Virus record (IMG/VR): IMGVR_UViG_3300017917_004497
Coordinates: 1 to 23,339 of that record
Reading direction: 5' to 3' (one strand)
DNA: 23,339 bases
Origin: a virus
Position 1 is the first letter of the stretch. The number at the start of each line of letters is the position of its first letter. Both the position numbers and the translations under genes were made by a program. Below the pieces are notes generated by a model. That model was not told the origin of the DNA. It did no database searches and saw nothing but the letters and a program-made list of their open reading frames with translations. Below, one piece after another: positions 1 to 14,539 of the stretch.

Positions 1-135
1 AAGGTTGAGATGGAGAAGGCTGAATTGGTGATGGTGTAATAGGAGAAGGTTGAGATGGAGAAGGCTGAATTGGTGATGGTGTAATAGGAGAAGGTTGAAA
101 GGGAGAAGGCTGACTTGGCGATGGTATTGATGGTG
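1..135 (-). repeat. 45-bp coding tandem repeat (15-residue PSP-rich unit)
   Basis: Bases 1-45 and 46-90 are identical and 91-135 is a diverged third copy. Each unit encodes a 15-residue Pro/Ser/Gln/Ile/Thr segment in the minus-strand adhesin frame. The array continues beyond the window edge. Because 45 is a multiple of three, copy-number change would keep the frame and only alter stalk length. Confidence 0.93.
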
Positions 136-2056
136 TTAATGGTGTAGGTGTAGGTGTAGGTGTAGCTGTAGGTGAAGCTGTAGGTGATGGAGATGCTGGA
201 CTTGGAGCGCATGGATTCACAGGATTATTTGGATTTTTGGGACTACTTTCTGGAAAACATACATTATCTTGAAAAGCAAAATTTAGACACCATTTGGCAT
301 AAAAAGGTAAATCAGCACTTGATCCACTTTTTCTTACTGACCAAAGTTTCCAGGTTCCTACGGGCTTTATTCCATTAAATACACTTAAACTAGTTGACCA
401 AGGTGTAACAGGGAAAGATCCAAGTGTAAACCAATTATCACCTGCACTTGGAGAACCAGTGCAAGTATCCATTGAAATATTGTCGTTTGATTGCAATGTG
501 TTTGGAGACGGTTTGTATGTTCCGCCTGAAACTACTACTGGATCAGCTAATGTTCCATCTGGATTTCCATTTGTGGTAGAATTATTATTTCTTGGTAAAT
601 ATTTTATAGAATCATCAGAAAAAATTAAATCAATTGTTGTAGTATTATCTACATTGCCAACACGTAACTCATCGCAAATAGTACCACATGGAAAAACTGA
701 AGTATCATATGTTAAAGCGTTTACTGCTGTAGACCACAAGATACAAGATCTAGTAGAAAGTTCACCATCTTGTAATGGAGCTTCTAAAACTATTAAAATT
801 TCTCCTAAATTATTTGGTGTTAGGCTTGGAGCTTTTTGCTTTAAACCAAATCCTTCAAGTTTAACAGTCACTCTATTTAATATTGTTGGATTGGCGCAAG
901 TACTACAAGCAGATTCAGTAACTTCCAATATGCTATAACTAGATACTGTTCCTATGTTAGCACCAGCATTGCTGCATTGCCCAACGCTATCAACAAAATC
1001 AATTAAAATAGGTGCAAATCCAGTGTTTATGTCTATGGGACTTAGTTCAATAACACTAGGTATTCCTATTGCTGTAATTATAGTTGGAATATATGGTTCA
1101 GTAAAAGTAATTACAGATGGAATTGGAGGAACAACTACTATAGTGCTTGGCACATTCAATGGCCCTAAAGGGCCAATATTTATTGAAGGAAAAACAACTG
1201 GAGGAAAATTAATGACTACTGGAACTGGTTCAAAGTTTGGTATATCAATTAAAGGAAAATCAGGTATTGGAGGGCATTCAATAGGAGGAACTGTTACTTG
1301 AACAGGTTCTACAAAATCGGGACCAGCACCTCCAGCATTTGCATTATCACAGGTAACAGTCAAACTTGTATTTGGTGTGGTTACTGTCAATAATGGATTT
1401 ATATCATAACCAGGCGGATAACTATGTACTCCTGTTAGAGCTGTTGTTTCAGAAGTTCCATCTCCAAAATCAAGTGCAAAACCAGTTGTATCAGCATTAA
1501 TAGAAATATCGTAAGTGAAATTTGTACCTGTTGTGGGATTGAGATCTCCAATATTACAGTTGAATATTACTTCTGGAATTCCATAATCGTCCAAAATCGC
1601 TGGCAAATTCTCTAAATTTTCTAATTTCCAAGTTAATGGATTTTGATTTTGTGTACCTTGATTTCCTATAACATTTTCTAAATTTACAATTGCTCTTGCC
1701 AGCTGGTTATGGTGTTCTGCCATAACAAAGCCTCTAATATCAGTACCAGCTGGATTAAATTGAGATTTTTTTCCACCTATGCTTCTTATACAATTTTTTA
1801 AAGCATTTATTTTATTTGTATATTGGTCGAATCCAACATCATCATAATAAAGTACTTCACCATTTATTGTAGCAAAACCATTATTTGGCCAAATTTCTGG
1901 TCTATCTACAGGCACAGGTTTGATATAAATAATAGTATCAAATTGCTCTGATGGAAGTACAGTAACACTTTCTGTGCTATTTTTTACATCAAATAGAGTA
2001 TAATCCGTATCATAAGTTTTTGGATATACTGGAAATGGTATGTACCCGTTATTCAA
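1..2056 (-). CDS. Modular tail adhesin-like protein with PKD-like and P-domain-like regions and a Pro/Ser/Thr repeat stalk; C-terminus cut by window edge
   Basis: I read this frame codon by codon: it is open from TTG at 2056 to base 2, at least 685 codons. An in-frame TAG at 2068-2066 leaves TTG as the only reasonable start, and AGGGTG lies 5 bases upstream. Residues 1-30 and the AEHHN motif near residue 115 match the next two upstream genes. A PKD-like domain with DFGDG lies near residues 158-230. A Pro/Ile/Val-rich spacer of about 100 residues follows. Residues about 385-595 resemble a proprotein-convertase P-domain: RVTVKLEGF, ILIVLEAP, FSDDS, GGTYKPS, LSVFNGIKPVGTWKLW and KWCLNF occur in family order. 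The C-terminus is a TP/PSP-rich stalk with 15-residue repeats. About fourteen cysteines may form disulfides. I infer an extracellular fibre or adhesin at the tail tip; there is no catalytic protease domain. The stop lies outside the window. Confidence 0.8.
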   Translation of the reverse strand, partial: MNNGYIPFPVYPKTYDTDYTLFDVKNSTESVTVLPSEQFDTIIYIKPVPVDRPEIWPNNGFATINGEVLYYDDVGFDQYTNKINALKNCIRSIGGKKSQFNPAGTDIRGFVMAEHHNQLARAIVNLENVIGNQGTQNQNPLTWKLENLENLPAILDDYGIPEVIFNCNIGDLNPTTGTNFTYDISINADTTGFALDFGDGTSETTALTGVHSYPPGYDINPLLTVTTPNTSLTVTCDNANAGGAGPDFVEPVQVTVPPIECPPIPDFPLIDIPNFEPVPVVINFPPVVFPSINIGPLGPLNVPSTIVVVPPIPSVITFTEPYIPTIITAIGIPSVIELSPIDINTGFAPILIDFVDSVGQCSNAGANIGTVSSYSILEVTESACSTCANPTILNRVTVKLEGFGLKQKAPSLTPNNLGEILIVLEAPLQDGELSTRSCILWSTAVNALTYDTSVFPCGTICDELRVGNVDNTTTIDLIFSDDSIKYLPRNNNSTTNGNPDGTLADPVVVSGGTYKPSPNTLQSNDNISMDTCTGSPSAGDNWFTLGSFPVTPWSTSLSVFNGIKPVGTWKLWSVRKSGSSADLPFYAKWCLNFAFQDNVCFPESSPKNPNNPVNPCAPSPASPSPTASPTATPTPTPTPLTPSIPSPSQPSPFQPSPITPSPIQPSPSQPSPITPSPIQPSPSQP
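141..188 (-). repeat. 6-bp coding microsatellite encoding Thr-Pro dipeptides
   Basis: Four perfect ggtgta units on the plus strand (141-164) are followed by four degenerate ones. They encode a TP-rich run just before the 15-residue repeats of the same protein. The unit is in-frame, so slippage would change length without a frameshift. Confidence 0.85.
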
Positions 2057-2061
2057 TTGTT

Positions 2062-2067
2062 CACCCT
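2062..2067 (-). promoter_or_regulatory. Ribosome binding site that decides the TTG start at 2056
   Basis: AGGGTG on the minus strand sits 5 bases before TTG at 2056-2054. It lies in the 29-base gap after the previous gene's stop, and no ATG or GTG in frame is near. It is the main support for a non-ATG start of the P-domain gene. Confidence 0.7.
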
Positions 2068-2085
2068 AGTTTATTTAGTATTTTG

Positions 2086-4269
2086 TTAGAAAGTTCCCAT
2101 CAACCATTGGCTATAATTTGGCCTTTCTGATAATTTGCTAAAACTTAAGTCAATATCACTAAATCTTAAAAATGAATTGTATGTATAATCAAAACTAAGA
2201 AAAGCGTTATGATCATTGTCAGTTGTTGCTAGTAAAGTATTTTGTGCGTTATTAAAATCTAAAAAGTTTCTATCTTGATATTGTGCAAATTCAACAGGAT
2301 TAGTAATTCCTCCAATTTGCCAAGATTCTGTTGCTGTGTCATATGCAGATACTGATCCTGAATTGTTGAAAAAGTACAGACCGCTAGTTAAGTTTACTAA
2401 TTGACCTTCTAGTTTTTCAGGACCGGCTACATTATTTAATTTTTTGAAATAAAATATTAAATCTGCACCATTTTCAACAGTTTGATAAAAAGAGTTTAAT
2501 TGGAAAAATGAACCAACTCCGCTATTTCTTACAAAATACCCATTTCTATCTCTCCAAGCGTATCTATAAACAGAAAAATAACCATATAGACTATCACAAG
2601 CATCATTAAACTCTGCAATATTTTGTTGAAGTTCAGAAGCAGCTGAAATATAATTATTTATTGAAAAATTATAAGATGAAGTAGCATTAGATAATTGATT
2701 GTATATAATCATAGTTTGATTTGTCAAACTAAGATTTACAGGTTGTGTAGTTGGATTGCCAAAAAGGAAATATGTTTCAAAATCTTTATTAAATGCTATC
2801 CAGTTCCAAGGTCTAACAATATTTTTAATTTCAGCATATGATTCATTGAAACCATTATATTCGACGATTTGAATTAATTCTGCTGAGGTTGGTTCTACGC
2901 CGTTTCTACCTGTCGCGTAACAAATATTTGATGTTCCTGCATATCCACTTGATAGAGAAGATGAACTGCTTAGAAAAGTATTACGACTAAACTCTCTGAT
3001 TGCTTGTTCAGAATTAAATGTATTTATTAAAAAATTATAATTACTTGTTATATTAAGACTTGCATTTTGTCTTGTCTTGAATGCTTCACTAATAAACCCA
3101 AATTCACTTGCTCTGACAACACTAGTGCTATAAGAATCAAAATTATACAACCATAAATTTGTTAGTTCTATAACATTTACATAATTTGATAAAACAGTAT
3201 TTGTATATGCTAAAGAAACAGTGTCAACTCTTAAAACCACATCATAAATTCCACCAGATGAATATAATAAATCTGTAGATTGAGTATTTGTGTGTGGATA
3301 ATTATCGGACACTAACCAAGTGTAAGTAGTAATTGGGTCAATTGGTACATTGTTTTGATTTACTTCTTCCCCTGAATATGTTTTACCAGTCAGTGGATTT
3401 ATACCAGGAGGTACAAAAATTGATAAAACTGTTTCAATAGGAATTTTTATTTGGTCATTTACAATTTGCTGAAATGTTGATAATGTATAATTAATAACAG
3501 CAAAATCTGGTGCAGGATACTTTACATTTATATAAGCAGGAAATTTAAGAGTATCACTTCCGTATTTATTTGTTACTTTGAGAGTAACATCAAAAAGTCC
3601 AGGTCGTTGATAAGTGTGTGTAGCATTTCCAACATTACTTGTTACGCTATAATTTATTTGACTAATATTATTATCACCAAAATCCCATGTGAAAGTGATT
3701 GGATTATTTTCAATATTTGCGCCAAGTCTAAAACTCTCATCTGTAAAATTTACCGTTAGAGGTACAACTCCTATTTTGTTATCGGCAGAAAACCAGGCTT
3801 TAGGCATATATGCAATGCTATATAAATAATTAATTCTTTGATTTATGTTACCTTTATACGGCATCATAGCTTTTTCATCAGCCAATCCCAAATATTCTTG
3901 AATTAGTTTTATTGAGTCTTTTATTGCATTATGATGTTCTGCCATTACATTTTGTAATACATGAGTTACATTTTTTGGTTTATAACTATCAATAAATCCA
4001 CCTAAGATAGTAATTCCATCAAAAGTTACATCTGTTTTTGAAGTATAATAAAATGATATGATTCTTTTTTGTGGTTCGCTACAATTTTCAACTAAAGAAA
4101 TTAATCCTGAATCTGGAAACAAATCCATAATTGTTTGATTTAATTCAACTGTAATCGAAGTATCACCTGGATTATAATCTTGGCTTAAAACTAATCTAAG
4201 ACTATCTTTTACTTCATATAAATTTGTAAAATCGTCAACTGCATTTGGAAAATTAAGTGGAACCAACAT
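2086..4269 (-). CDS. PKD-domain tail adhesin-like protein (727 aa)
   Basis: This is the second member of the three-gene family. Residues 7-28 carry the shared FP...D...LYEVK pattern, and AEHHNA lies at 110-115 followed by an amphipathic helix. A clear PKD fold covers about 156-250, with PLTVNFTD, WDFGDN near 195 and HTYQRPGLFDVTLKVTN. A second, divergent PKD-like unit covers about 253-370, with TTYTW and YDVVLRV. The C-terminal 350 residues are not recognised; they are rich in Asn, Ser, Tyr and Phe, and one segment (LYFFNNSGSVSAYDTATESW) is reminiscent of a Kelch or propeller blade, which is weak. ATG at 4269 shares one base with the upstream stop (TAATG) and AAGGTG precedes it, so translation is probably coupled. 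A role as a receptor-binding or decoration protein is inferred from domains and position. Confidence 0.85.
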   Translation of the reverse strand: MLVPLNFPNAVDDFTNLYEVKDSLRLVLSQDYNPGDTSITVELNQTIMDLFPDSGLISLVENCSEPQKRIISFYYTSKTDVTFDGITILGGFIDSYKPKNVTHVLQNVMAEHHNAIKDSIKLIQEYLGLADEKAMMPYKGNINQRINYLYSIAYMPKAWFSADNKIGVVPLTVNFTDESFRLGANIENNPITFTWDFGDNNISQINYSVTSNVGNATHTYQRPGLFDVTLKVTNKYGSDTLKFPAYINVKYPAPDFAVINYTLSTFQQIVNDQIKIPIETVLSIFVPPGINPLTGKTYSGEEVNQNNVPIDPITTYTWLVSDNYPHTNTQSTDLLYSSGGIYDVVLRVDTVSLAYTNTVLSNYVNVIELTNLWLYNFDSYSTSVVRASEFGFISEAFKTRQNASLNITSNYNFLINTFNSEQAIREFSRNTFLSSSSSLSSGYAGTSNICYATGRNGVEPTSAELIQIVEYNGFNESYAEIKNIVRPWNWIAFNKDFETYFLFGNPTTQPVNLSLTNQTMIIYNQLSNATSSYNFSINNYISAASELQQNIAEFNDACDSLYGYFSVYRYAWRDRNGYFVRNSGVGSFFQLNSFYQTVENGADLIFYFKKLNNVAGPEKLEGQLVNLTSGLYFFNNSGSVSAYDTATESWQIGGITNPVEFAQYQDRNFLDFNNAQNTLLATTDNDHNAFLSFDYTYNSFLRFSDIDLSFSKLSERPNYSQWLMGTF

Positions 4270-5285
4270 TAAAGCACCTTTATTGTTGATGAAGCAGAAA
4301 TTTTATTTGAACCTAAATTTGTTGTAATCAATAAACTTGGTGTATATGTTCCTGGATTTACATAAAAATGATTTGCATAATTTATAAGTGGATTAGATTG
4401 ATTTTCATTACTTCCATCATCAAATATCCAAAATCTTGATTGAATATTACCATCAGTTTGATCAGTAAATTTAAAATTTGTAGCTTGTATGCTAAGTTTG
4501 CTGGCAGTTTTAATTGAATAACCCGTAACTGGAGAAACATAAAATAAAAATTTAATTATATCATTACTTACTTTTATGTAATTATTTTTTTTAGCAAAAC
4601 CTTGACCGCCAATATTTGTGATTGCTCTACAACTTACTGAGTAAACTCCCTCTGTTAAATAGGTATGTTCTGGACTTTTTTCTAATGATGTTCCTCCATC
4701 ACCAAAATCCCAGAAAAATTTATTTGCTATTTCTGTAGTAAAATTCTGAAATTTTACAGTTAGAGGTGTTCTCCCTGATCTTGGATTCGCTCTAAATATT
4801 GGTTGTGGATTATAAAATTTTCTTTCGAGTGCAGATAACCTTGAATTCACAGCAGTAGTATCAATATTGTCTGATGCACCTAGATATGTTTCTATATTTA
4901 TTATTGCATCTTTTAGTGCGTTATGATGCTCTGAAAAAACTCCTCCAATAACAGGGCAATTTATTGGCCAGTTTTGTTGTCTAGTACCAGCATAGCCTCT
5001 AATTAAATTTGTAAATGTATTATCTGTTTTAGCATCATAATAAACAAATTCAGGAACAGCTGCAAATTTGTCTTCTAAAGTTATTCTTAAAATGCCTTTT
5101 TCTGGAAATGATTCAGTTGAATTTACTATAATTGAATTTGATCCATATACGCAACTTTGCAATAAAAAGGTTTCACTATTGTTTTTCGCAAAATATAGTG
5201 TCTCGTAACTATCAATTGCAGCAGGAAATACAGATAAATCGCCTGGTAAATAGCCACCATCATAACTGCTTATCTTTGTTACCAT
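4269..5285 (-). CDS. Two-PKD-domain tail protein (338 aa)
   Basis: This is the shortest and most typical family member. Residues 20-35 carry the FPAAIDSYETLYFAKN module. A middle segment contains FVYYDAKTDNTFTNLIRGYA, and SEHHNALKDAI sits at 118-128 before a helix. PKD domain 1 (about 160-239) has WDFGDG at 192-197 and EHTYLTEGVYSVSCRAITN. PKD domain 2 (about 248-338) has FWIFDDGS and NPGTYTPSLLITTNLGS and ends the protein. PKD domains are Ig-like beta-sandwich spacers common in surface proteins and some phage tail proteins, so this could be a connector or short adhesin. ATG at 5285 overlaps the upstream coiled-coil gene by 26 bases in another frame. An AGGA motif lies about 12 bases upstream, a rather long spacing, so coupling to the upstream gene is likely. 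Confidence 0.88.
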   Translation of the reverse strand: MVTKISSYDGGYLPGDLSVFPAAIDSYETLYFAKNNSETFLLQSCVYGSNSIIVNSTESFPEKGILRITLEDKFAAVPEFVYYDAKTDNTFTNLIRGYAGTRQQNWPINCPVIGGVFSEHHNALKDAIINIETYLGASDNIDTTAVNSRLSALERKFYNPQPIFRANPRSGRTPLTVKFQNFTTEIANKFFWDFGDGGTSLEKSPEHTYLTEGVYSVSCRAITNIGGQGFAKKNNYIKVSNDIIKFLFYVSPVTGYSIKTASKLSIQATNFKFTDQTDGNIQSRFWIFDDGSNENQSNPLINYANHFYVNPGTYTPSLLITTNLGSNKISASSTIKVL

Positions 5286-5886
5286 TAGTCAACATTTTCC
5301 TTTGAATATTTGTAAATGATTCTACCAACGATGTCTTAATTTTACTATTATCGTCAAGACACATAGTTGATTTAACTAACTCATTATTTATTGGATGGCC
5401 TAATAAAATATTCAAATTTATTTCATTGCTAAACTTGTTTTCAAAATATTCCTTTTGTGCTTTTTCATCATTGAAATCAACATATTTAATTTTTGAGATT
5501 AATTCGTTGAAAATACTAACAAATTTTTTACTTTCTTCTTCTAAACAAATTTTCTTTTTATGCAATTTAGCGAGATTATTTTCCAAAACAAGTATTTGTC
5601 TATTTATTTTTTTTATTTCAATAGTTTTAACTACAATTTTTACATTTGTTTCATTTTCTTTATCTGATCTTTCAATAAGTTTTAATGCAATATCGTCTTT
5701 ACAATTTTCTATTTCTAAATCTAAATTTACTAAACTATCATATCTTGCTTCAATCTCTCTTAGACATTGCCACGCTCTACCAATATGTGTTGGTTCTTTT
5801 CCTATGATAAATTTCTCGATTTGAAAATCACTATGTCGTTGTGGTGCTGGAAATTTTTCTAGTATTTCTTTACAAATCTCAATCAT
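5260..5886 (-). CDS. Charged coiled-coil protein of unknown function (208 aa)
   Basis: I do not recognise this family with certainty. The N-terminus (about residues 1-50) is compact, with PAPQRHSDFQIEKFIIGKEP and GRAWQCLREIEARYDSL. Residues about 50-130 are Lys/Glu/Ile-rich with heptad-like spacing, suggesting a long coiled coil. The C-terminus (about 140-195) has KAQKEYFENKFSNEINLNIL and GHPINNELVKSTMCLDD. There is no signal peptide, membrane segment or beta-rich part, unlike the virion proteins around it. A non-virion assembly factor for the neighbouring fibres is an inference; a structural coiled-coil linker is the alternative. GGAG lies 6 bases before ATG at 5886, but both fall in a predicted hairpin. 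The 3' end overlaps the next gene by 26 bases and stops at TGA. Confidence 0.8.
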   Translation of the reverse strand: MIEICKEILEKFPAPQRHSDFQIEKFIIGKEPTHIGRAWQCLREIEARYDSLVNLDLEIENCKDDIALKLIERSDKENETNVKIVVKTIEIKKINRQILVLENNLAKLHKKKICLEEESKKFVSIFNELISKIKYVDFNDEKAQKEYFENKFSNEINLNILLGHPINNELVKSTMCLDDNSKIKTSLVESFTNIQRKMLTNGNKDKQL

Positions 5887-5926
5887 TGATTTCTCCGTTG
5901 TTATAATAATAGAGAAATCAAATGAT
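5882..5926 (-). promoter_or_regulatory. Inverted repeat that could hide the start site of the coiled-coil gene
   Basis: TTGATTTCTC at 5886-5895 and its exact complement at 5912-5921 form 10 perfect pairs. The pairing extends to about 14 with one bulged base, using 5882-5926. The loop is about 16 bases and A/T-rich. In the minus-strand mRNA the downstream arm contains part of the GGAG ribosome site and the AUG at 5886-5884. No U-tract follows, so it does not look like an intrinsic terminator. It lies in the largest intergenic gap of the window. Confidence 0.6.
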
Positions 5927-5930
5927 AATT

Positions 5931-6716
5931 TTAATCAAGTGGTAAGTCAAAATCTATTCTAATAATATCATCAATTTTAAGAGCAGTATCTAGAAAAAAT
6001 CCTAATCTATCTTCTGTTTCTGTAAATTTATTATATAGCCAATGCTTAGTATTAGGATCTGTAGAAGCATAATACACAGTTGCATCAGAAAACAACCTAG
6101 TTCCATTTACATAAACTCTTAATGATCCCTCTGTATAAGGAACATTAAGACCAGTTAAATAATTTACATAATCTGGAGTTAAATTTTTGCTCAAAGGAGT
6201 AATCTGATAAAAATGTCTGTGAGCATTTTGTAGTCCAACAATAACTTCAGCTGATACTTTATTTGGTTCAGAAACAGTAAAACTTATTGTGCTACTATTT
6301 TCAAGTATTAATGGTCCGTTATCAAAAAATACAACTTCTGAAATTTTATCAACTTGAATCCAGAAATTTTTGGCTTCATTTTGAATTAAAGCAAGTTTTT
6401 CTCTTTCACTTAAAGTCATTCTTACATAATCGACACCATCAAAATTTCCATCTTCATGCGCGCCTATATTGTGCATTGCCTCATCAATTTTATAATTTTT
6501 AAGATCACCATTTGGCATGAGTGATTGATTTAGTCTTGCTGCTAAAGATCCAGTACTGCCAATAGCTGACTCTAAAATATTTGTATTTATATCAACAGCA
6601 TTATTAATTAAGTCTTCTCTTTGAATTAAAGCTTCAAGAGGAAGATTATCATAAACCCAATAATAAGGTTGTAAAGGTTGATAAGATGGAACAGGAATTA
6701 AATTTATATCTGGCAT
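5931..6716 (-). CDS. Putative tail fibre or baseplate-periphery protein (261 aa)
   Basis: The N-terminus, with PYYWVYDNLPLEALIQRED and NNAVDINTNILESAIGSTGS, followed by LAARLNQSL, looks like an oligomerising attachment region of phage tail proteins; this judgement rests on pattern memory. Residues about 85-130 include EDGNFDGVDYVRMTLSERE and a helix. The C-terminal half is beta-rich, with QNAHRHFYQITPL, EGSLRVYVNGTRLFSD and DDIIRIDFDLPL, typical of a fibre-type beta domain. It sits between the wedge genes and the adhesin genes, as expected for a connector or short fibre. ATG at 6716 is 15 bases after the upstream stop, and I see no good Shine-Dalgarno sequence there, so translation may depend on re-initiation. 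Exact role unknown. Confidence 0.78.
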   Translation of the reverse strand: MPDINLIPVPSYQPLQPYYWVYDNLPLEALIQREDLINNAVDINTNILESAIGSTGSLAARLNQSLMPNGDLKNYKIDEAMHNIGAHEDGNFDGVDYVRMTLSEREKLALIQNEAKNFWIQVDKISEVVFFDNGPLILENSSTISFTVSEPNKVSAEVIVGLQNAHRHFYQITPLSKNLTPDYVNYLTGLNVPYTEGSLRVYVNGTRLFSDATVYYASTDPNTKHWLYNKFTETEDRLGFFLDTALKIDDIIRIDFDLPLD

Positions 6717-6731
6717 ATATTATTTACACTA

Positions 6732-7205
6732 TTAAATAAAATTTACTCTCCAATTCCAAACTATTTGTATATCACTTGTTTTTGATAATGTGGGAAAAGT
6801 TGCCATAGAATACAATACATCATTATTCAAAACAAGAGCCATTTCTGACAATCCATACCCATTTGCGTCATCAAATCCTAACACAGAAGTAAAAATAGCT
6901 TGAGAAGAATTGTTAGAATCAATTGAGCTAATAACACTTTTGCTTGCTCTTGTGATGCCAAAAAGACCTGTTCTTTCTGGATTAACATATCTAATCGTAG
7001 TTCCGTCTACTCCACCATCACCAAAAATCATTCTAGAAACGAAGAAATCAAAAGATTGTCCTATATTATTCGTTAATGCTTGAACTACTGCTGATCTTCC
7101 TCCTAGCAAAACAGTATTCTTAAAATTTATATCTGTTACCAATCCATCTTTTGTTATGATTTTACCATTTACAAGTCCAATTGAAGATACTGATTCTGTT
7201 ATCAT
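6732..7205 (-). CDS. Putative small baseplate or tail-fibre-associated protein (157 aa)
   Basis: This is a beta-rich protein. Its pattern of FFVSRMIFGDGG in the middle, a central TGLFGITRASKSV, then LSEMALVLNN and the ending FPTLSKTSDIQIVWNWRVNF resembles small phage tail proteins that start with a helix for trimer contact and end in a W-x-W beta strand. That family feeling comes from pattern memory, not a search. ATG at 7205 overlaps the stop of the gp7-like gene as ATGA, and AAAGGTGAA lies just upstream, so the two are translationally coupled. The position directly after the wedge gene favours a peripheral baseplate component, perhaps a fibre adaptor. Confidence 0.75.
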   Translation of the reverse strand: MITESVSSIGLVNGKIITKDGLVTDINFKNTVLLGGRSAVVQALTNNIGQSFDFFVSRMIFGDGGVDGTTIRYVNPERTGLFGITRASKSVISSIDSNNSSQAIFTSVLGFDDANGYGLSEMALVLNNDVLYSMATFPTLSKTSDIQIVWNWRVNFI

Positions 7206-10200
7206 AGTTCACCTTTGCTTTCTGTGCCATCTTTCCTTTTAATAGAATAACTAATTCCCTCAAATTGCTGAGAAAAATCTTGTGGTTGACCATTTTTTAA
7301 GTTTTCTCTTGTTTCTTCTTTTTCAAGTAATCTACTGGCTACATATAGAGACATATTATTTATTTGACCTTGTATTAGTTCTTGACCACTTCTGTCTATA
7401 AAATTATATTCATCACCCATGATATTAATTGGATTTTTAATATATCTATAAAGAATATAAGAAAATGTGCTTCCACCATATGTTTGTGTTCCTAAAGACA
7501 CAAATTTACCTGTTAAATAAACATATGTATTAGGTCCAACAGTTTGTTCTTTTACTATTGCATATTTTGTACTATTGTGTTCAACAAGATAATTCTCTGT
7601 AAAATTACTGTCTTCTAACGCATTTGGATCATTTGGAGAAGTAAATGTTGGCCATGTTATAGGCTTCAAAATTTTAATTTCAGAATAATTAAAATTACCA
7701 GTTGCTTCTTTTATCAATCTTTTCAAAAACTTGCCAGCTACTAATGCTAAATCTCCAGAATTCCAATTTGAAATATAAAATTGTAATTTATTGCTTTCAT
7801 TCCATCCCACAACATCATATTGTTGGCTAGTAGAATCTAAGTAAAAATAATTATTTTCAGTAATATATTGAGAAACATCCTGTATTCCAAGAGATATTGG
7901 TATTTCAACTCTACCTCTATGCTTTATGTAATAATTACCAGTAGTACTTGAAAATATTAGATTATTGTTATTATCAACTAAATTATATTCTAAGTTTTGT
8001 ATATCATTGTTGTAAAGTGTTCCATCATCTTCTAAGATAAGTGAATTATCATCAATATTGTATATATTGTAGTATTTAGATAGACTTGTGATATAAACTT
8101 TCCAACATGAATTAGAATATCCGTATATTACATCCCAAAGAGTCTTTATAGGATACATAACGAAATGTTGTGTTGTATCAGATAAATAATGAATATTGTC
8201 CTGAAAAATATTAAAATTAGCTGAAGCAAAAATAATATTTGATAGTCTAAAAGTAAAATCAGAAGTATTTAAAAGTTCAGGAATAGAACCAATTGCTACT
8301 TTTGCAGTATTTGTTATTGGATCTGTAATGCCATACTCACCAGCATTTATATGTGGAGCAAGAACTTCCAACATATTATTACTAGGAGAATTGTCAAGTC
8401 CTATTGATGACAAATTATATAAAGGAGCAAATAATCTTACTTCTTCATTATATCCAGTAGTTGATCCAGTATCCTCTGTAGACGAAGATGCTAAAACATT
8501 TCTTAGCACTTGGTTTGTGTAAAAAGGTAAAACCATATTCCTGTTAAAAGATGAATTGGCCTGACCGCTAATAGTAAATTCATCACCTTCATATTTGATC
8601 AATATTTGAATTGATTCAACTGGAGGTACTATAATATCATCAAAATAACCAACAAATTTTAGTGTGTGCAAAATTGCATGAAAAGGCATAAATTGTTCTA
8701 AAATTTCTTGTGCTTCTATTAGTCTTGTATTTGACAAATCTTGAATTAATAAATCAACATTGTAGTATGAACTTATTGTGTTTCTACATGGCTCTACGAA
8801 GTTTTTATCAATATCTTTTGGTTCATATGAATCTCTTAAAGATCCATTATATTCATCCATGTTATAGGCTTGTTCGCTATATGGAAATTCTGTTCTGATT
8901 TTACCAAACTTGATTGGATCGTAAAATGGATTTTTCACATTTATAATAGTTGAAAATAACGGATCATTTTCTTCGATTACATGAGTGTTCCAGTCTTTTT
9001 TGGGAAACTCAAATGTTCTGTCATCTCTTGTGTCTGCCAATTGTAATGATAAAATATAATTACTTATTTGAATTTGAGTTTCATTTGCAAACTCTTTAAT
9101 TTGATATGTAAGTTTTATTCTGTCGCCTGCTTGTAATTCTTTTCCTTTCCAAACTAAAACAGATTTTCCAGCGAATGTGATTATTTCACAATTAGATAGA
9201 TTAATTTCTTGATAGGCTTGTGTATTGTTTTCAAATTCCAACTTAAAATGCTGAACATTAATTGGTAATGATACTTTGTCCAATGTCCATCTAGTTTCAC
9301 CTTCATATGCAAATGATTCTGTAAATACAAATTCTGAACCAACTAACCATAATTGACTATAACTTAGCAATCTTATACCAGCATCATCTAAAACTTCTCT
9401 AAGACCTTTTAATGTACCTTTTTTCTTGTTCAACGGAATTGATTTTGCTACTTGTTTTCTCCATCTTGTAGGATCAGTGCTTCTTAATGGCGTATTGAAC
9501 ATATTAGCCAAATAAATTAAAAGCTGATCCTGTATAACATTTGCATCATACAAATCTATAATTTGATTTGATAAATTTTCAAGCATAGTAAATCCATCAC
9601 CTATGCTTTTATTTGTTTTTTCTAAAACATTAGGACCAATATCATTTGCAGCATATTTTTGTTTGTACATTTCAGGCAAATATTTTGTAAGCAAATCAAA
9701 ATATTTCTTTGGCGGTGTTCTGTGGCTAGGTAAAGATGTAGTACCTTTAATATCTGACTCTAAATAAAATTTTTGATGAGCTGATATTGTGTCTCCATTC
9801 AAATTTGGTTTGTATTTATAACAAATAAAATAATCACCTTCTCTTACATTTTCGGCAGTCCACTCGAACATGAATCTACCATATGCAAAACTTTCATTTG
9901 GTGCTGGTTTTACTATAGGAAATTGAATTGAATTATCACTTTTCCACAATGGTTCACTTTCACTTCCTTTATTAAAAACCACAACACTATTCAAATAGTA
10001 GTTGTTAGATTCAATTTGTGAAGTAAGCAATCTAGATTTTGCATCAGCAGCTCTTTGTAAATTTTCAGGAGTTGGATTAATACAAGCAATATTGTTCAAT
10101 CTGTAATATTCTGTTTCCAAGCCTTTTTGACTTGAAACATCATCAAATTCACTAAGATTAGGATTAGCAAAGTCTCTTTGTATGTAATAAATTGTAATAT

Positions 10201-10309
10201 TAACAAACGCATAGGGATTTTCAGTAAAGCAATCTTGTGCGTTTGGAGTCAATAATGGAAATAAAACAACATCATTAACTCTCGGTAGTTCTGTATATAA
10301 TTTAATCAT
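7202..10309 (-). CDS. Baseplate wedge protein, tail protein I / T4 gp7-like (about 1,035 aa)
   Basis: In contractile tails the P2 gpI / T4 gp7 protein forms the wedge core with two copies of the gpJ/gp6 protein encoded just upstream. The diagnostic segment lies near residues 205-320: FDLLTKYLPEMY, then DQLLIYLANMFNTPL, RWRKQVAKSI and KKKGTLKGLREVLDDAGI. A later motif, EQFMPFHAILHTLKFVG, also fits. The remaining roughly 700 residues are beta-rich additions. The length is close to T4 gp7 (1,032 aa) and far longer than P2 gpI, suggesting an elaborate wedge. The frame also offers TTG at 10363, but that would overlap the previous gene by 50 bases without a good ribosome site. ATG at 10309 follows the upstream stop by 4 bases with GAGTG nearby, and I prefer it. 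The stop overlaps the next gene (ATGA). Confidence 0.85.
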   Translation of the reverse strand: MIKLYTELPRVNDVVLFPLLTPNAQDCFTENPYAFVNITIYYIQRDFANPNLSEFDDVSSQKGLETEYYRLNNIACINPTPENLQRAADAKSRLLTSQIESNNYYLNSVVVFNKGSESEPLWKSDNSIQFPIVKPAPNESFAYGRFMFEWTAENVREGDYFICYKYKPNLNGDTISAHQKFYLESDIKGTTSLPSHRTPPKKYFDLLTKYLPEMYKQKYAANDIGPNVLEKTNKSIGDGFTMLENLSNQIIDLYDANVIQDQLLIYLANMFNTPLRSTDPTRWRKQVAKSIPLNKKKGTLKGLREVLDDAGIRLLSYSQLWLVGSEFVFTESFAYEGETRWTLDKVSLPINVQHFKLEFENNTQAYQEINLSNCEIITFAGKSVLVWKGKELQAGDRIKLTYQIKEFANETQIQISNYILSLQLADTRDDRTFEFPKKDWNTHVIEENDPLFSTIINVKNPFYDPIKFGKIRTEFPYSEQAYNMDEYNGSLRDSYEPKDIDKNFVEPCRNTISSYYNVDLLIQDLSNTRLIEAQEILEQFMPFHAILHTLKFVGYFDDIIVPPVESIQILIKYEGDEFTISGQANSSFNRNMVLPFYTNQVLRNVLASSSTEDTGSTTGYNEEVRLFAPLYNLSSIGLDNSPSNNMLEVLAPHINAGEYGITDPITNTAKVAIGSIPELLNTSDFTFRLSNIIFASANFNIFQDNIHYLSDTTQHFVMYPIKTLWDVIYGYSNSCWKVYITSLSKYYNIYNIDDNSLILEDDGTLYNNDIQNLEYNLVDNNNNLIFSSTTGNYYIKHRGRVEIPISLGIQDVSQYITENNYFYLDSTSQQYDVVGWNESNKLQFYISNWNSGDLALVAGKFLKRLIKEATGNFNYSEIKILKPITWPTFTSPNDPNALEDSNFTENYLVEHNSTKYAIVKEQTVGPNTYVYLTGKFVSLGTQTYGGSTFSYILYRYIKNPINIMGDEYNFIDRSGQELIQGQINNMSLYVASRLLEKEETRENLKNGQPQDFSQQFEGISYSIKRKDGTESKGEL

Positions 10310-10313
10310 CACA

Positions 10314-11864
10314 TCACTCGTATGTAAAATTAATTGTTGTTGATTCAGGTCTGATAATTTCAAAATATCTTGTAATTACTTGTTTACCACTATTATTTGG
10401 ATTTACTGTAGCAAAAAATATGTCATATCTCTTTGGTTGCTGCAAATCAGACAGAGCTTTTATTACATCTGTGTCTCTTAAAGGCTGTCCATAATCCCAA
10501 TAATTAAGACTAAAAAATGATGTTATTCTATTGCTAATCTGTGCTTTAATTTCATCCTGGAACTTTTTGTAATATTTATCAAGAATTACATTTAGTGAAG
10601 TATTTACATAAACAATTTCTCCATCCTTTACATCAACATAATCTGTTATCATTTTATTTTCTTTGATATATTGCTCAAACTCATATTTAAACTGAGAATT
10701 AGCCTTTACAAGATTAAAATTATTTTCCTTAACTAGAATAAAAAATTCAATAATATTTGCCGAACATCCACTATGTCGTAAAACAACATTAGCTTTACCC
10801 ATAGAACCATTATATGGAGTAGTGAATAAATTGGCGTAATTTTTATAATCTGTTCCACTTACACATCTATTTTGCGTTTGTGCATAAATAGGCAACTTGT
10901 ATCTAATGTCATCAATGCTATCACCAGAGAATCCAAATTCTCCTCTTGTGTAATTTGATAAAGAAACTACAGCATTGAAAACTTCACCATCTATCGGAAC
11001 TAATGCTTCAGCAGATGCAAAATTACTTATTATATTTCCGCTAGGCCCACCACCTACTCTGTACACAACTTTTATACTTGATCCAACAGTAGGAATATAT
11101 CCAGCTCTATTACTGCCAAAAATAATAAAAGCAGTGTAAGTTGAATCAAAATCAACTCTATATTCTCTTCTAGCTTGTGAATCTGTAAAATATAATACCT
11201 GTTCCCATTCAACACCATCTACAAACACTCTTATTGAATCAAACAAAACTGGATTAAATGTACTTGCGTATGTCTGAGATGGACCGCCTTCAGAAGTAAA
11301 GAAATCTGTGTAAGTCCGTCCTTGTATTCCAACAATATTACTGTTAATAAGTTGCCCAGATGGTATTATAATATCCTCATCAAATATTGGTCTATTCAAT
11401 GGGTCTGCACTAAATAGTTCAATCGTTGTAGCCTGATCTGCATTTACTATATCAACAACATATGGAGTTGGAATTCTTAAATCAACATTATAAGTGTTTG
11501 CTATCCTCGCGCTCCATAAAGACTTTCCTGCTACTGGTGGTGTCGGTCTAAAACCAACTAACTGAGCAAGCCTAAATGCATTATCAAGTTCTGTAACTGT
11601 ATCAATAAACACTTCATTAGCTAATTGATCTATTTTAAATGATAAAGTATCAGCTATGAAAGCCCAGTTTTCAATCAACATTATGCCTAATGAAGATTCA
11701 ACAAAATCATTAAACTCTGATCCAAAATTTTCTTGTATGTAATTAATTAATCTTGTTTTAAGTGACCAAAAGTCTTGATTTGTATAATTTAACGAAAAAA
11801 CTTGTGGCTTGCTTGTAGATGCACCCACTTTGTATGGTGTTATATCAAAAGGACATTTTTCCAT
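10314..11864 (-). CDS. Baseplate J-like wedge protein (T4 gp6 / P2 gpJ family, 516 aa)
   Basis: This family forms the ring that links wedges around the hub. The N-terminus has the family pattern LGIMLIENWAFIADTLSFKI and DTVTELDNAFRLAQLVGFRP. The middle has a beta domain with IRVFVDGVEWEQVLYF and FIIFGSNRAGYIPTVGSSIK. Then comes RGEFGFSGDSIDDIRYKLP and VSGTDYKNYANLF, typical of baseplate J. The C-terminal DYGQPLRDTDVIKALSDL also fits. Length is intermediate between P2 gpJ (about 300) and T4 gp6 (660). ATG at 11864 overlaps the previous stop by one base (TGATG) and GGGGGTG lies upstream. The in-frame GTG three bases earlier is unnecessary. Confidence 0.92.
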   Translation of the reverse strand: MEKCPFDITPYKVGASTSKPQVFSLNYTNQDFWSLKTRLINYIQENFGSEFNDFVESSLGIMLIENWAFIADTLSFKIDQLANEVFIDTVTELDNAFRLAQLVGFRPTPPVAGKSLWSARIANTYNVDLRIPTPYVVDIVNADQATTIELFSADPLNRPIFDEDIIIPSGQLINSNIVGIQGRTYTDFFTSEGGPSQTYASTFNPVLFDSIRVFVDGVEWEQVLYFTDSQARREYRVDFDSTYTAFIIFGSNRAGYIPTVGSSIKVVYRVGGGPSGNIISNFASAEALVPIDGEVFNAVVSLSNYTRGEFGFSGDSIDDIRYKLPIYAQTQNRCVSGTDYKNYANLFTTPYNGSMGKANVVLRHSGCSANIIEFFILVKENNFNLVKANSQFKYEFEQYIKENKMITDYVDVKDGEIVYVNTSLNVILDKYYKKFQDEIKAQISNRITSFFSLNYWDYGQPLRDTDVIKALSDLQQPKRYDIFFATVNPNNSGKQVITRYFEIIRPESTTINFTYE

Positions 11865-12277
11865 CACACACCCCCAAGTGGTATAGCTAAAACTAAATTC
11901 TGCACATCATTTATCTGCTCAGGATTTACAAATTGTATTTTCACTAAAACTCCCTGTTCATTAGTTACAATAGTATCTGAATTAGGATCTCGTTCCATCA
12001 ATGTTTCAACTGTAATTTCTGTAACTGTAATTCTTGGCTCCCATGTATCAATCGCACTTATAATTTCATCCCTAATTTGATTGTTTAAACCAACACCACT
12101 TTGCTCAAATAAATATTTTCTTAAATTTGTTCCATATAAAGGCAACATGACTCTATCACCAGGATTTGTCATGATAAGTTGAATCAAATCACCTTTAATA
12201 TTGTTTTTTCCTTTTTGGGAGTAATAAAATCCCAAAGGATTAGTTGTTACGGGAAATTGAAAACCACTTAGTTCCAT
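11864..12277 (-). CDS. gp25-like baseplate wedge protein (137 aa)
   Basis: The gp25/gpW family is a universal wedge component that seeds sheath assembly in contractile tails. Characteristic residues are visible: GDLIQLIMTNPGDRVMLPLY, a Gly-rich GTNLRKYLFEQ, and IRDEIISAIDTWEPRITV followed by a strand. These match the family core of an R-M/P-rich turn and a conserved W-E/P-R-I segment. Length is normal (T4 gp25 is 132 aa). The gene lies between spike and baseplate J, the order found in many myophages and contractile injection systems. It ends in TGA overlapping the next ATG. It starts 2 bases after the spike stop, with GGGTG upstream. Confidence 0.95.
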   Translation of the reverse strand: MELSGFQFPVTTNPLGFYYSQKGKNNIKGDLIQLIMTNPGDRVMLPLYGTNLRKYLFEQSGVGLNNQIRDEIISAIDTWEPRITVTEITVETLMERDPNSDTIVTNEQGVLVKIQFVNPEQINDVQNLVLAIPLGGV

Positions 12278-12279
12278 AA

Positions 12280-14532
12280 TTAATTACACCCAGGAGGTAG
12301 TTTTGCAGTTCCAGTTACATTTCCTTGTAATACTCCTAATTTACCAGCATATACATTTGTATTTCCACTTACAGCAAGAGCCTTTGGCAAAACTAATGAA
12401 CCTAAACTAATTCCTTTAGCTCCAGGTCCACATGAAGCATAAACTCTATTACTTATTCTTAAACATCCATTTTGATATACAACTACTGGAGCCAAACCCG
12501 GTCCTTTCTTTATTTCATTTTTCTTAACTGTTTCATTAACTACTGTATTTATATTATTTTTTGAAGAAATATTTACATTTGCAAAAAATTGATTTTGTCT
12601 TTTTATCTCGTAATCATTACCAGCTAATAAATAAATTTTGTCAGTTGCTTGCATTGCGATCACTTTATTTGATCTAATATAATAATCTTGTTCAACAAAA
12701 TCTACTCTTTTCTCTTTAGCATAATTGACAATACTTTTTTCAGTTGCCAAAATCATACTATCGGTAGATTCTATAAGTATATTACCTCCTGCTCTAAGTC
12801 TAATATATCCTCTTTCTGGTAATTCTTGTAATTGGAATAAATGTGGACCTTGTTTAGAATTTTTTTGTGGAGCAAACATGGATATACTCTGAAATTGCGT
12901 TTTACTTTGAGATTGTGCATCTGACATTTTAATTGCTAAACCATATCCTGTTTGAATTGTTATACTAGCATTTGTTGCTTTTGATTCAGGTTGTGTACCA
13001 TCTCTTCTTGGTAATACTTTTCTCTTATTGCCCTCATCAGAAATTTTAATAAAGTTATTACTTGTTGATCTTATTAATATTCCTTGATCTTTTGAAGCTT
13101 TATCATCATATTTTTTACCTTCAACAGCATCACACAAAAATATTTCATTACCTAAAGCAGATTTTATTTTTATTCCATTTTCATCGCCTCGTACCTGTTT
13201 GCCATTTTTTCTTTCTATATCATTTAATTGTATCAAATGCCCAGTTGTTGATTTCCAATATGACCTACCCATGAATCTATCGTTACATCCAAAATCAAAA
13301 TTTTCTAAACTTCTTTTCCATGACATATTTCCTCTTGGTTGATCCACACTATCATCCATAACCAAAGTATGTCCAGATATTGACATAATTTGTATACCTG
13401 ATTGTGGTAAGTCAGCAGTATTGTTTTGTGGAGTTTGTGGTCCTTTATATGGTCTACATTCATTTTTATTTTTGAAAAATGGATTAGTACCTTTTTGAGT
13501 TCCTATATCAGTTTGATTTTCAGATTCTCCTCCAATAATATTTCTTTTTTTAGTATTGCAAGTTGTATCTTCATTAGAACTTACACCTGGTATAAGTTTG
13601 TCTAATCCAGTGTAATTAAAACTACTTTGCTGAACTTGTCCACCATTGTTAATAGTATTATTATTAAATCTAGTTATATCTGTAGCACTATATGGTTTAG
13701 GATTGGGCACAACTTTGTTATTATATTTAATGCAACTCGTATCAGCAATCCGTTTTTTATTTGGTTGACAATCTGGATGTGCCCATTGCCCGCAATAATG
13801 TAAATGATCATCTTTAAATATCATCCAGTTGCCATTACCGCTCATTATTTCCATTCTTTTCCATTTACGATTACATTCAAAATCACCATCCACCATTTTA
13901 ATCATGTGTTTTTCAGGTGTTTTGAATCCATAAATATTTGGCAATGTTTGTCTTAAAGGTGCAGTTGGGTCTTTATCAACATTTTCTAATGAGTCAGTAT
14001 CAAAAGCATTATATGATTCAGTATTCCAAGGTGGCAAAACTTGAGAACCATTATCTGGCCCGCAAAAATAACCATCTCTTACATTTTTGCCATCATAACA
14101 ATATGCAAATTCTGGAACTGGTATTCCGAAATCATTTGCACCTGTTGGTCCTCTAAACCTTGTCCATGTAGTTCCAAGATAAAAAGCACTACCATTCAAA
14201 CCATTTTCAAAAACAATAAATACCTTAGAACCTGCAGGAGGCACCCATGATAATCCACAATCGTCAAATCCTCCTAAAGAAGAAATAGGAGCAGCCCAAG
14301 GTAAACTATCTGTACTTATTGTTGCTTCATCTAAAAAAGGTGTGTAATACTGTATTCTATTTTGTTTCCATACATCAAATGTTGAAATTACTATAGCAGA
14401 ATATACACCATATCTCATATTTGTAGAACCAAACATTCTAGCCAAATCTTCAGTATTTTGTTTTAAATCACTAGCATATTTTTCAAGCTCTATGATTCTA
14501 TTTTCTAATGCAATAATATCACTGTCATTCAT
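12280..14532 (-). CDS. Baseplate central spike, gp5/VgrG-type without lysozyme (750 aa)
   Basis: A short N-terminal coiled coil (residues 5-35) precedes an OB-fold (about 39-123) with LPWAAPISSLGGFDD, WVPPAGSKVFIVFENG and FYLGTTW, typical of gp5/gpV/VgrG proteins. From about residue 202, repeated strands of the type G-h-x-I-x-h-x-D begin; they recur through about 660 (for example SGIQIMSISGHTLVMDD, NGIKIKSALGNEIFLCD, GYIRLRAGGNILIES), consistent with a trimeric beta-helix needle. Between about 243 and 376 they are broken by an Asn- and Cys-rich insertion that starts HLHYCGQWAHPDC. No lysozyme domain is seen. The tail end (KLPPGCN) has no HxH metal tip and there is no separate PAAR gene. ATG at 14532 has GGAG 7 bases upstream; the TTG at 14538 lies inside that spacer and is rejected. 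The role is cell-envelope piercing, and the protein sits on the hub encoded just upstream. Confidence 0.88.
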   Translation of the reverse strand: MNDSDIIALENRIIELEKYASDLKQNTEDLARMFGSTNMRYGVYSAIVISTFDVWKQNRIQYYTPFLDEATISTDSLPWAAPISSLGGFDDCGLSWVPPAGSKVFIVFENGLNGSAFYLGTTWTRFRGPTGANDFGIPVPEFAYCYDGKNVRDGYFCGPDNGSQVLPPWNTESYNAFDTDSLENVDKDPTAPLRQTLPNIYGFKTPEKHMIKMVDGDFECNRKWKRMEIMSGNGNWMIFKDDHLHYCGQWAHPDCQPNKKRIADTSCIKYNNKVVPNPKPYSATDITRFNNNTINNGGQVQQSSFNYTGLDKLIPGVSSNEDTTCNTKKRNIIGGESENQTDIGTQKGTNPFFKNKNECRPYKGPQTPQNNTADLPQSGIQIMSISGHTLVMDDSVDQPRGNMSWKRSLENFDFGCNDRFMGRSYWKSTTGHLIQLNDIERKNGKQVRGDENGIKIKSALGNEIFLCDAVEGKKYDDKASKDQGILIRSTSNNFIKISDEGNKRKVLPRRDGTQPESKATNASITIQTGYGLAIKMSDAQSQSKTQFQSISMFAPQKNSKQGPHLFQLQELPERGYIRLRAGGNILIESTDSMILATEKSIVNYAKEKRVDFVEQDYYIRSNKVIAMQATDKIYLLAGNDYEIKRQNQFFANVNISSKNNINTVVNETVKKNEIKKGPGLAPVVVYQNGCLRISNRVYASCGPGAKGISLGSLVLPKALAVSGNTNVYAGKLGVLQGNVTGTAKLPPGCN

Positions 14533-14539
14533 GGTCAAA

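Follow-up and report, generated by a model that had tools for sequence, protein, structure and literature searches.

A probable adhesion cassette of uncultured huge phages: three tandem genes with a common tail-fibre-type N-terminal module

Introduction

The baseplate periphery of phage T4 includes gp9 to gp12, the products of adjacent genes with common parts: the N-terminal 200 residues of gp9 and gp10 are 23% identical, and gp10, gp11 and gp12 can be superimposed and are encoded one after another (PMC3004832). In Kuttervirus (CBA120), the tailspike proteins (TSPs) TSP2 and TSP4 combine common N-terminal assembly domains with differing receptor ends (PMC8825819). Phage GP4 has three types of tail fibres, according to the title of a study cited in PMC10925440, and the Rak2-like jumbo phages CBB and phAPEC6 encode RCC1-like proteins and Kelch-type propeller proteins, one of which, CBB_552, is present in the virion (PMC5259590, PMC7247149). 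Here we analyse three tandem genes, A, B and C, in the IMG/VR virus record IMGVR_UViG_3300017917_004497, of which the whole stretch of 23,339 nucleotides (23.3 kb) is referred to as the window. The three proteins have in common an N-terminal module (N-module) with an (A/S)EHHN motif. In the uncultured lineage of huge, contractile-tailed phages to which the window belongs, they are likely to serve as the distal adhesion cassette, each with one tail-fibre-type attachment domain at its N-terminus.

The A-B-C genes lie downstream of wedge genes of the gp25/gp6 type, as do the genes for gp9 to gp12 in T4, and the two sets are alike in consisting of adjacent genes with common parts. However, Kelch and PKD parts are not known in gp9–gp12, and we regard A-B-C as an analogue without claiming membership. 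The common parts of the Kuttervirus tailspikes are gp10-like XD domains, which are likened here to the EHHN module by their arrangement, and no link to such a module has been reported for the propeller proteins of CBB and phAPEC6. Our literature searches found no paper on the A-B-C cassette; the ‘moraphages’ (PMC12619734) are a candidate relative. A parallel arrangement was observed in the Burkholderia phage BcepMigl (L133:37535-40767), where three tail fibre genes that resemble one another at the N-terminus stand in tandem.

A common N-terminal module in A, B and C

A sequence-only reading of the window had proposed that the three genes share an N-terminal module carrying the (A/S)EHHN motif at equivalent positions. 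BLASTP with the full proteins relates A to B (8e-21), A to C (8e-13) and B to C (7e-4), and hhalign with ortholog profiles of the N-modules alone gives 4.2e-25, 1.5e-24 and 2.7e-20 for the same pairs. In view of these hhalign values, the similarity reflects homology and not chance. The modules of B and C are 22–32% identical to that of A. The motif, which starts at residue 118 of A, 110 of B and 113 of C, falls in one aligned column, and the observation is confirmed. Across 108 diverse modules, His120 is present in 104 rows and His121 and Asn122 in 107 each; the HHN is followed by hydrophobic residues in a heptad-like pattern (124, 127/128, 131 and 135) and then by a conserved Gly136. Within the collections scanned, the xHHN helix start is almost exclusive to the A-B-C lineage. 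Pfam matches on the N-modules (An_peroxidase, PLDc and others) were scattered or of low complexity and were set aside.

The N-module was modelled alone by AlphaFold2 with the 108 sequences and reached a predicted local distance difference test score (pLDDT) of 90.8. The model is a compact fold with strands within residues 37–95, a further strand at 111–114 and a helix at 118–135 that begins at the SEHHN. The motif helix scores poorly in the model of full-length B, where its blocks have pLDDT values of 44 and 51, and its placement there is therefore unreliable. Among solved structures, the module best matches chain 1 of PDB entry 8jov, a GP4 portal-tail complex (Z 11.6, root-mean-square deviation 1.7 Å, 109/116 residues, 16% identity), with an alignment that spans model residues 31–151 and thus covers the helix. 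This chain, identified by phmmer with the BcepMigl tail fibre (itself a fold match in BFVD), is a ‘Putative tail fiber protein’ of 439 amino acids (aa), present as 18 chains of one sequence, and it is the N-terminal domain of this fibre that matches. The two proteins thus have the same fold, a beta-domain plus a helix, at their N-termini. However, GP4 is a short-tailed podophage of Ralstonia, and its fibre is a single protein and not a tandem trio of paralogues to which PKD and Kelch parts are joined.

Later matches in the fold list are chains from phage records (virion, capsid, tail tube, tail tip, depolymerase/tailspike) with falling Z, and the list then levels off at ATPase beta-barrels with Z of about 6, taken as background. 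Many of the named BFVD matches are phage tail fibres. Searches of PDB sequences with the module profiles, including that of the 108 modules, gave nothing relevant, and the sequence matches to the fibres of BcepMigl and ECML-117 were weak. Residues ~35–101 match the N-terminal region of cyanophage wedge-initiator proteins (phrog_2885, best 1.9e-10); the ‘baseplate wedge initiator’ of Synechococcus phage ACG-2014f, a protein of 4225 aa, has the beta-part only, without an EHHN helix. By these comparisons, the N-module seems to be one version of a domain that is general in phage tails, and its assignment as a tail-fibre-type attachment module, in line with the role first suggested for it, is well supported by the structural match.

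Genes A and B beyond the module

A PKD-like domain had been placed after the module in all three proteins. This stands for A and B, in which PKD exceeds the Pfam gathering cut-off (A having two stretches, and with them the second PKD domain foreseen for this protein), whereas C and its orthologs remain below it (PKD_4, E 3e-4 to 0.04). The remainder of B had been described as a 350-residue unknown domain. In an AlphaFold2 model of full-length B computed with 29 orthologs (pLDDT 85.7), this C-terminal domain is predicted to be a Kelch-type beta-propeller: residues 367–727 align with the kelch domain of KLHL7 (3ii7) with a VIA-align Z of 21.9 over 269 residues at 3.3 Å, and Foldseek with structural alignment returned a long list of further Kelch propellers. 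The Pfam scan of B matched no Kelch family. Consequently, the assignment is a fold match and not membership of a Pfam Kelch family. Both A and B are conserved up to their C-termini across the lineage, B over its full length.

Gene C and its variable far end

Gene C runs off the contig, so that its true end lies outside the window. Its orthologs are conserved over the N-module, the PKD-like part and the neck (to about residue 345) and variable beyond. In the window and in L002, the distal part consists of ~260 residues without a recognised fold, followed by a proline-rich stalk. The P-domain that had been read in this region is not supported by sequence: Pfam gave no match to it at E <= 5, and the PDB gave none at E <= 10. 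In many relatives, distal C is a run of proline-phased repeats of 10 or 11 residues, and the autocorrelation of the 13 cases measured peaks at one of these lengths or at multiples of it; the units include PPSFxCISFC, CPTLINFGPL, IPTEIxVxDD and PFSITGPEYS. Where complete, C proteins of the repeat type end in a conserved domain (...EIEMVYKGSPI...PCFAIVPC). In L052 and L069, distal C instead holds RCC1 repeats (Pfam RCC1, 6.6e-19 and 8.5e-48), and repeated GYFAGG segments occur in L052 and others. The orthologs of C thus end variously in proline-phased repeats, RCC1/Kelch-like propellers or a proline-rich stalk, and at the level of sequence end-swapping occurs between them.

Long-repeat orthologs of C were observed at L047:11291-16423, L039:11369-15103, L005:10378-13431 and L042:11442-14117. 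Pfam matches on the repeats (WSN, Mucin-like, Extensin) were scattered or of low complexity and were not retained.

From their sequences, the distal repeats of C look like an undescribed fibre shaft. We tentatively extend this to the proposal that C may represent a new shaft type, in which a proline-phased beta repeat of 10/11 residues, free to differ in sequence and length from phage to phage, would be preceded by a fixed neck and followed by a conserved C-terminal domain. The shaft would be hung on a set of three paralogues (module plus PKD; module plus PKD plus Kelch; module plus shaft) assembling as a unit.

Distribution and history of the cassette

The last of our scans of viral contigs gave 232 relatives, the best 80 being kept. 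The A-B-C cassette is widespread in these scans, on contigs of up to 436 kb, and is also present in the 595-kb uncultured phage LR756511.1; at least 65 distinct relatives carry it, among them uncultured genomes of 323–595 kb. We read 130 loci, some contigs being counted more than once: 95 have A-B-C, 9 have A-B, 26 have A only, and no other order was seen (65, 9 and 6, respectively, when counted by distinct A sequence). Many incomplete cassettes stop at a contig end. The A-only loci come from a single subclade; where its contigs extend beyond A, large extra genes come next, and neither B nor C was found on seven of these contigs that were searched whole. In L025-L037 (e.g. L032:8987-15757), the gene directly after A is very large, reaching 2257 aa, and contains repeated segments. 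A single open frame at L026:3824-8284 has ~820 residues, including low-complexity sequence, before a B-type N-module, and is possibly an inserted gene fused to B or an assembly effect.

Each long record searched over its full length has three copies of the module, located in A, B and C. Three of these records show an additional match, which stems from a split hit within one gene; a true additional copy, separate from the other three, is present in the 35.5-kb record G017. The collection of prokaryote genomes yielded one relative, L135 (RXKI01000071.1), on a 25-kb scaffold of a Neisseriaceae metagenome-assembled genome. As this scaffold is possibly a misbinned phage, we claim no host.

In a tree of 101 modules, for which the program warned of some long branches meeting, the copies from each gene form a group of their own (100/99 for B, 99/96 for C and 97/94 for A), and each module scores >=100 bits better with the profile of its own group. 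The duplications consequently predate the diversification of the lineage, and these sequence comparisons identify A, B and C as separate ancient orthologous groups. The sequence-only reading had instead envisaged duplication of a docking module with swapped ends, giving several adhesins at one baseplate site. Taken as a recent event with interchangeable adhesins, this has in its favour the common module with differing C-termini in one genome. Swapping does occur, but among orthologs of C. Among A, B and C, recent duplication and end-swapping were rejected on the position-wise tree and the group profile margins; the conservation of A and B to their C-termini argues in the same direction, and among the loci read, in a search that was not exhaustive, no C-type end was seen on a module of type A or B. 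We consider recent duplication very unlikely.

The three paralogues are co-conserved in a fixed order, the frames of A and B overlap, and all three occur together on the long records searched whole. Together with the branched complexes formed by Kuttervirus tailspikes (PMC8825819), these features would fit N-modules of A, B and C that join as one heterotrimer or three-part branched complex, a single attachment unit. The deep divergence of the modules, at the identities given above, speaks against such an assembly, and the GP4 match, with its 18 chains of one sequence, fits homotrimers; we regard a joint complex as unlikely.

Layout of the locus

The window, which is probably a fragment, carries its large genes on the minus strand: a probable tape measure of 2074 aa, tail/hub genes, the baseplate genes and then E, D, F, A, B and C (Table 1). 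The reading frames of F and A overlap by 26 nucleotides, and the stop of A overlaps the start of B (TAATG). Across loci, A-B-C keeps a constant place a few genes downstream of the gp25/gp6/Tail_P2_I genes. This constant place, together with the tail-fibre-type N-module, is at odds with another explanation, that the cassette encodes decorations elsewhere on the virion. PKD and Ig-like domains do decorate several virion surfaces, and the products could on that ground be whiskers on the neck or the tail sheath, like those of the hairy Rak2-like jumbo phages. The Kelch and RCC1 proteins of the hairy phages CBB and phAPEC6 (PMC5259590, PMC7247149) are a further point in its favour; we nevertheless think it distinctly improbable, and prefer adhesion at the distal end of the tail.

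Several neighbouring genes deserve mention. A 752-aa protein (window 12280-14538) adjoins the gp25-like gene, has no PHROG match and, judged by position, may be the central spike; a gp7 equivalent is no more than tentative. A similar-looking gene for ~180–200 aa is located upstream of F in L005:5623-6225, L047:6756-7289, L052:6764-7321 and L054:16075-16704; in L005, L047 and L052 it lies between D and F, and the window has no such gene. In the 436-kb phage, two adjacent small open reading frames (ORFs) between E and D (L042:3771-4951) look SET-domain-like, by eye only.

Table 1. Features of the A-B-C locus, in window coordinates
Feature	Position	Strand	Evidence
Gene A, 338 aa: N-module and two PKD domains	4269..5285	-	ORF; Pfam PKD_4 2.3e-21, two stretches
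A N-module, residues 1-155	4821..5285	-	AlphaFold2 pLDDT 90.8; 8jov_1 Z 11.6
SEHHN of A (residues 118-122), at which helix 118-135 begins	4920..4934	-	alignment, model
Two PKD domains of A, ~residues 160-338	4272..4808	-	Pfam PKD_4/PKD
Gene B, 727 aa: N-module, PKD, second beta-sandwich, predicted Kelch propeller	2086..4269	-	ORF, Pfam, model
B N-module, residues 1-150	3820..4269	-	hhalign to A 4.2e-25
AEHHN of B, residues 110-114	3928..3942	-	alignment
B PKD (156-252) and second PKD-like beta-sandwich (253-366)	3172..3804	-	two Pfam PKD_4 stretches; model strands
B C-terminal Kelch-type beta-propeller, residues 367-727	2089..3171	-	predicted fold
Gene C, >=685 aa, open at contig end; TTG start preceded by AGGGTGA	2..2056	-	ORF
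C N-module, residues 1-150	1607..2056	-	hhalign to A 1.5e-24, to B 2.7e-20
AEHHN of C, residues 113-117	1706..1720	-	alignment
C PKD-like domain, ~residues 160-245	1322..1579	-	sub-threshold PKD_4; conserved DFGDG
C proline-phased neck, ~residues 246-345	1022..1321	-	aligned in 26 orthologs, 37-47% identity to window
C distal region, ~residues 346-605, closest counterpart in L002	242..1021	-	ortholog comparison
C low-complexity PSP/QPSP stalk, cut by contig end	2..241	-	45-nucleotide tandem repeat
Genes E (157 aa), D (261 aa) and F (208 aa), upstream of A	5260..7205	-	order kept across loci
Baseplate genes, whole block	7202..12277	-	phrog_261/43, phrog_219, Tail_P2_I
gp25-like gene	12277-11864	-	phrog_261/43, phrog_219 listed jointly with wedge gene
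gp6-like wedge gene	11867-10314	-	phrog_219, 4e-30
Tail_P2_I-containing protein, 1053 aa	10363-7202	-	Pfam Tail_P2_I 2.2e-6

Discussion

Module homology, predicted folds, synteny and the pattern of conservation together point to A-B-C as a distal adhesion cassette, and the trio probably builds the cell-recognition apparatus of the phage. Each of A, B and C would form a trimer, with the helix that follows the motif (hydrophobic residues 124-128-131-135) starting the three-fold axis, and the beta-domain of the N-module would dock at the baseplate periphery or tail tip. The PKD domains may serve as spacers. A could be a short connector or socket and B a pin-like part whose Kelch propeller would bind protein or glycan, whereas C would be the long, variable fibre that contacts the host with its far end. 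Host recognition would then vary through replacement of distal C and not through shuffling of A, B and C. The functional guess of the sequence-only reading was thus reasonable and is now better supported; its evolutionary reading is corrected.

Several points weigh against this interpretation. Similarity between a predicted and a solved fold is no demonstration of function, and for an uncultured phage the binding partner, oligomeric state and virion location are only inferred. Because its beta-part is present in cyanophage wedge initiators, the N-module would be a general tail module and is no fibre signature by itself. No chain of T4 gp9, gp10, gp11 or gp12 was among the fold matches listed for the B and module models, nor were CBA120 TSP chains, which does not imply that such matches are absent. 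Finally, the Kelch/RCC1 propellers of other jumbo phages have no proven role as adhesins.

This kind of cassette is known to specialists in principle, and Kelch/RCC1 propellers have already been reported in other jumbo phages. The present set would illustrate tail-tip proteins derived from tandem duplication of an attachment domain, without a detectable sequence relation to T4. The cassette separates fixed parts (A, B and the start of C) from a changing part (distal C) and provides proteins that can be tested. Huge phages are common in metagenomes and the relatives found here are uncultured; the xHHN module offers a sequence handle for flagging their adhesion genes.

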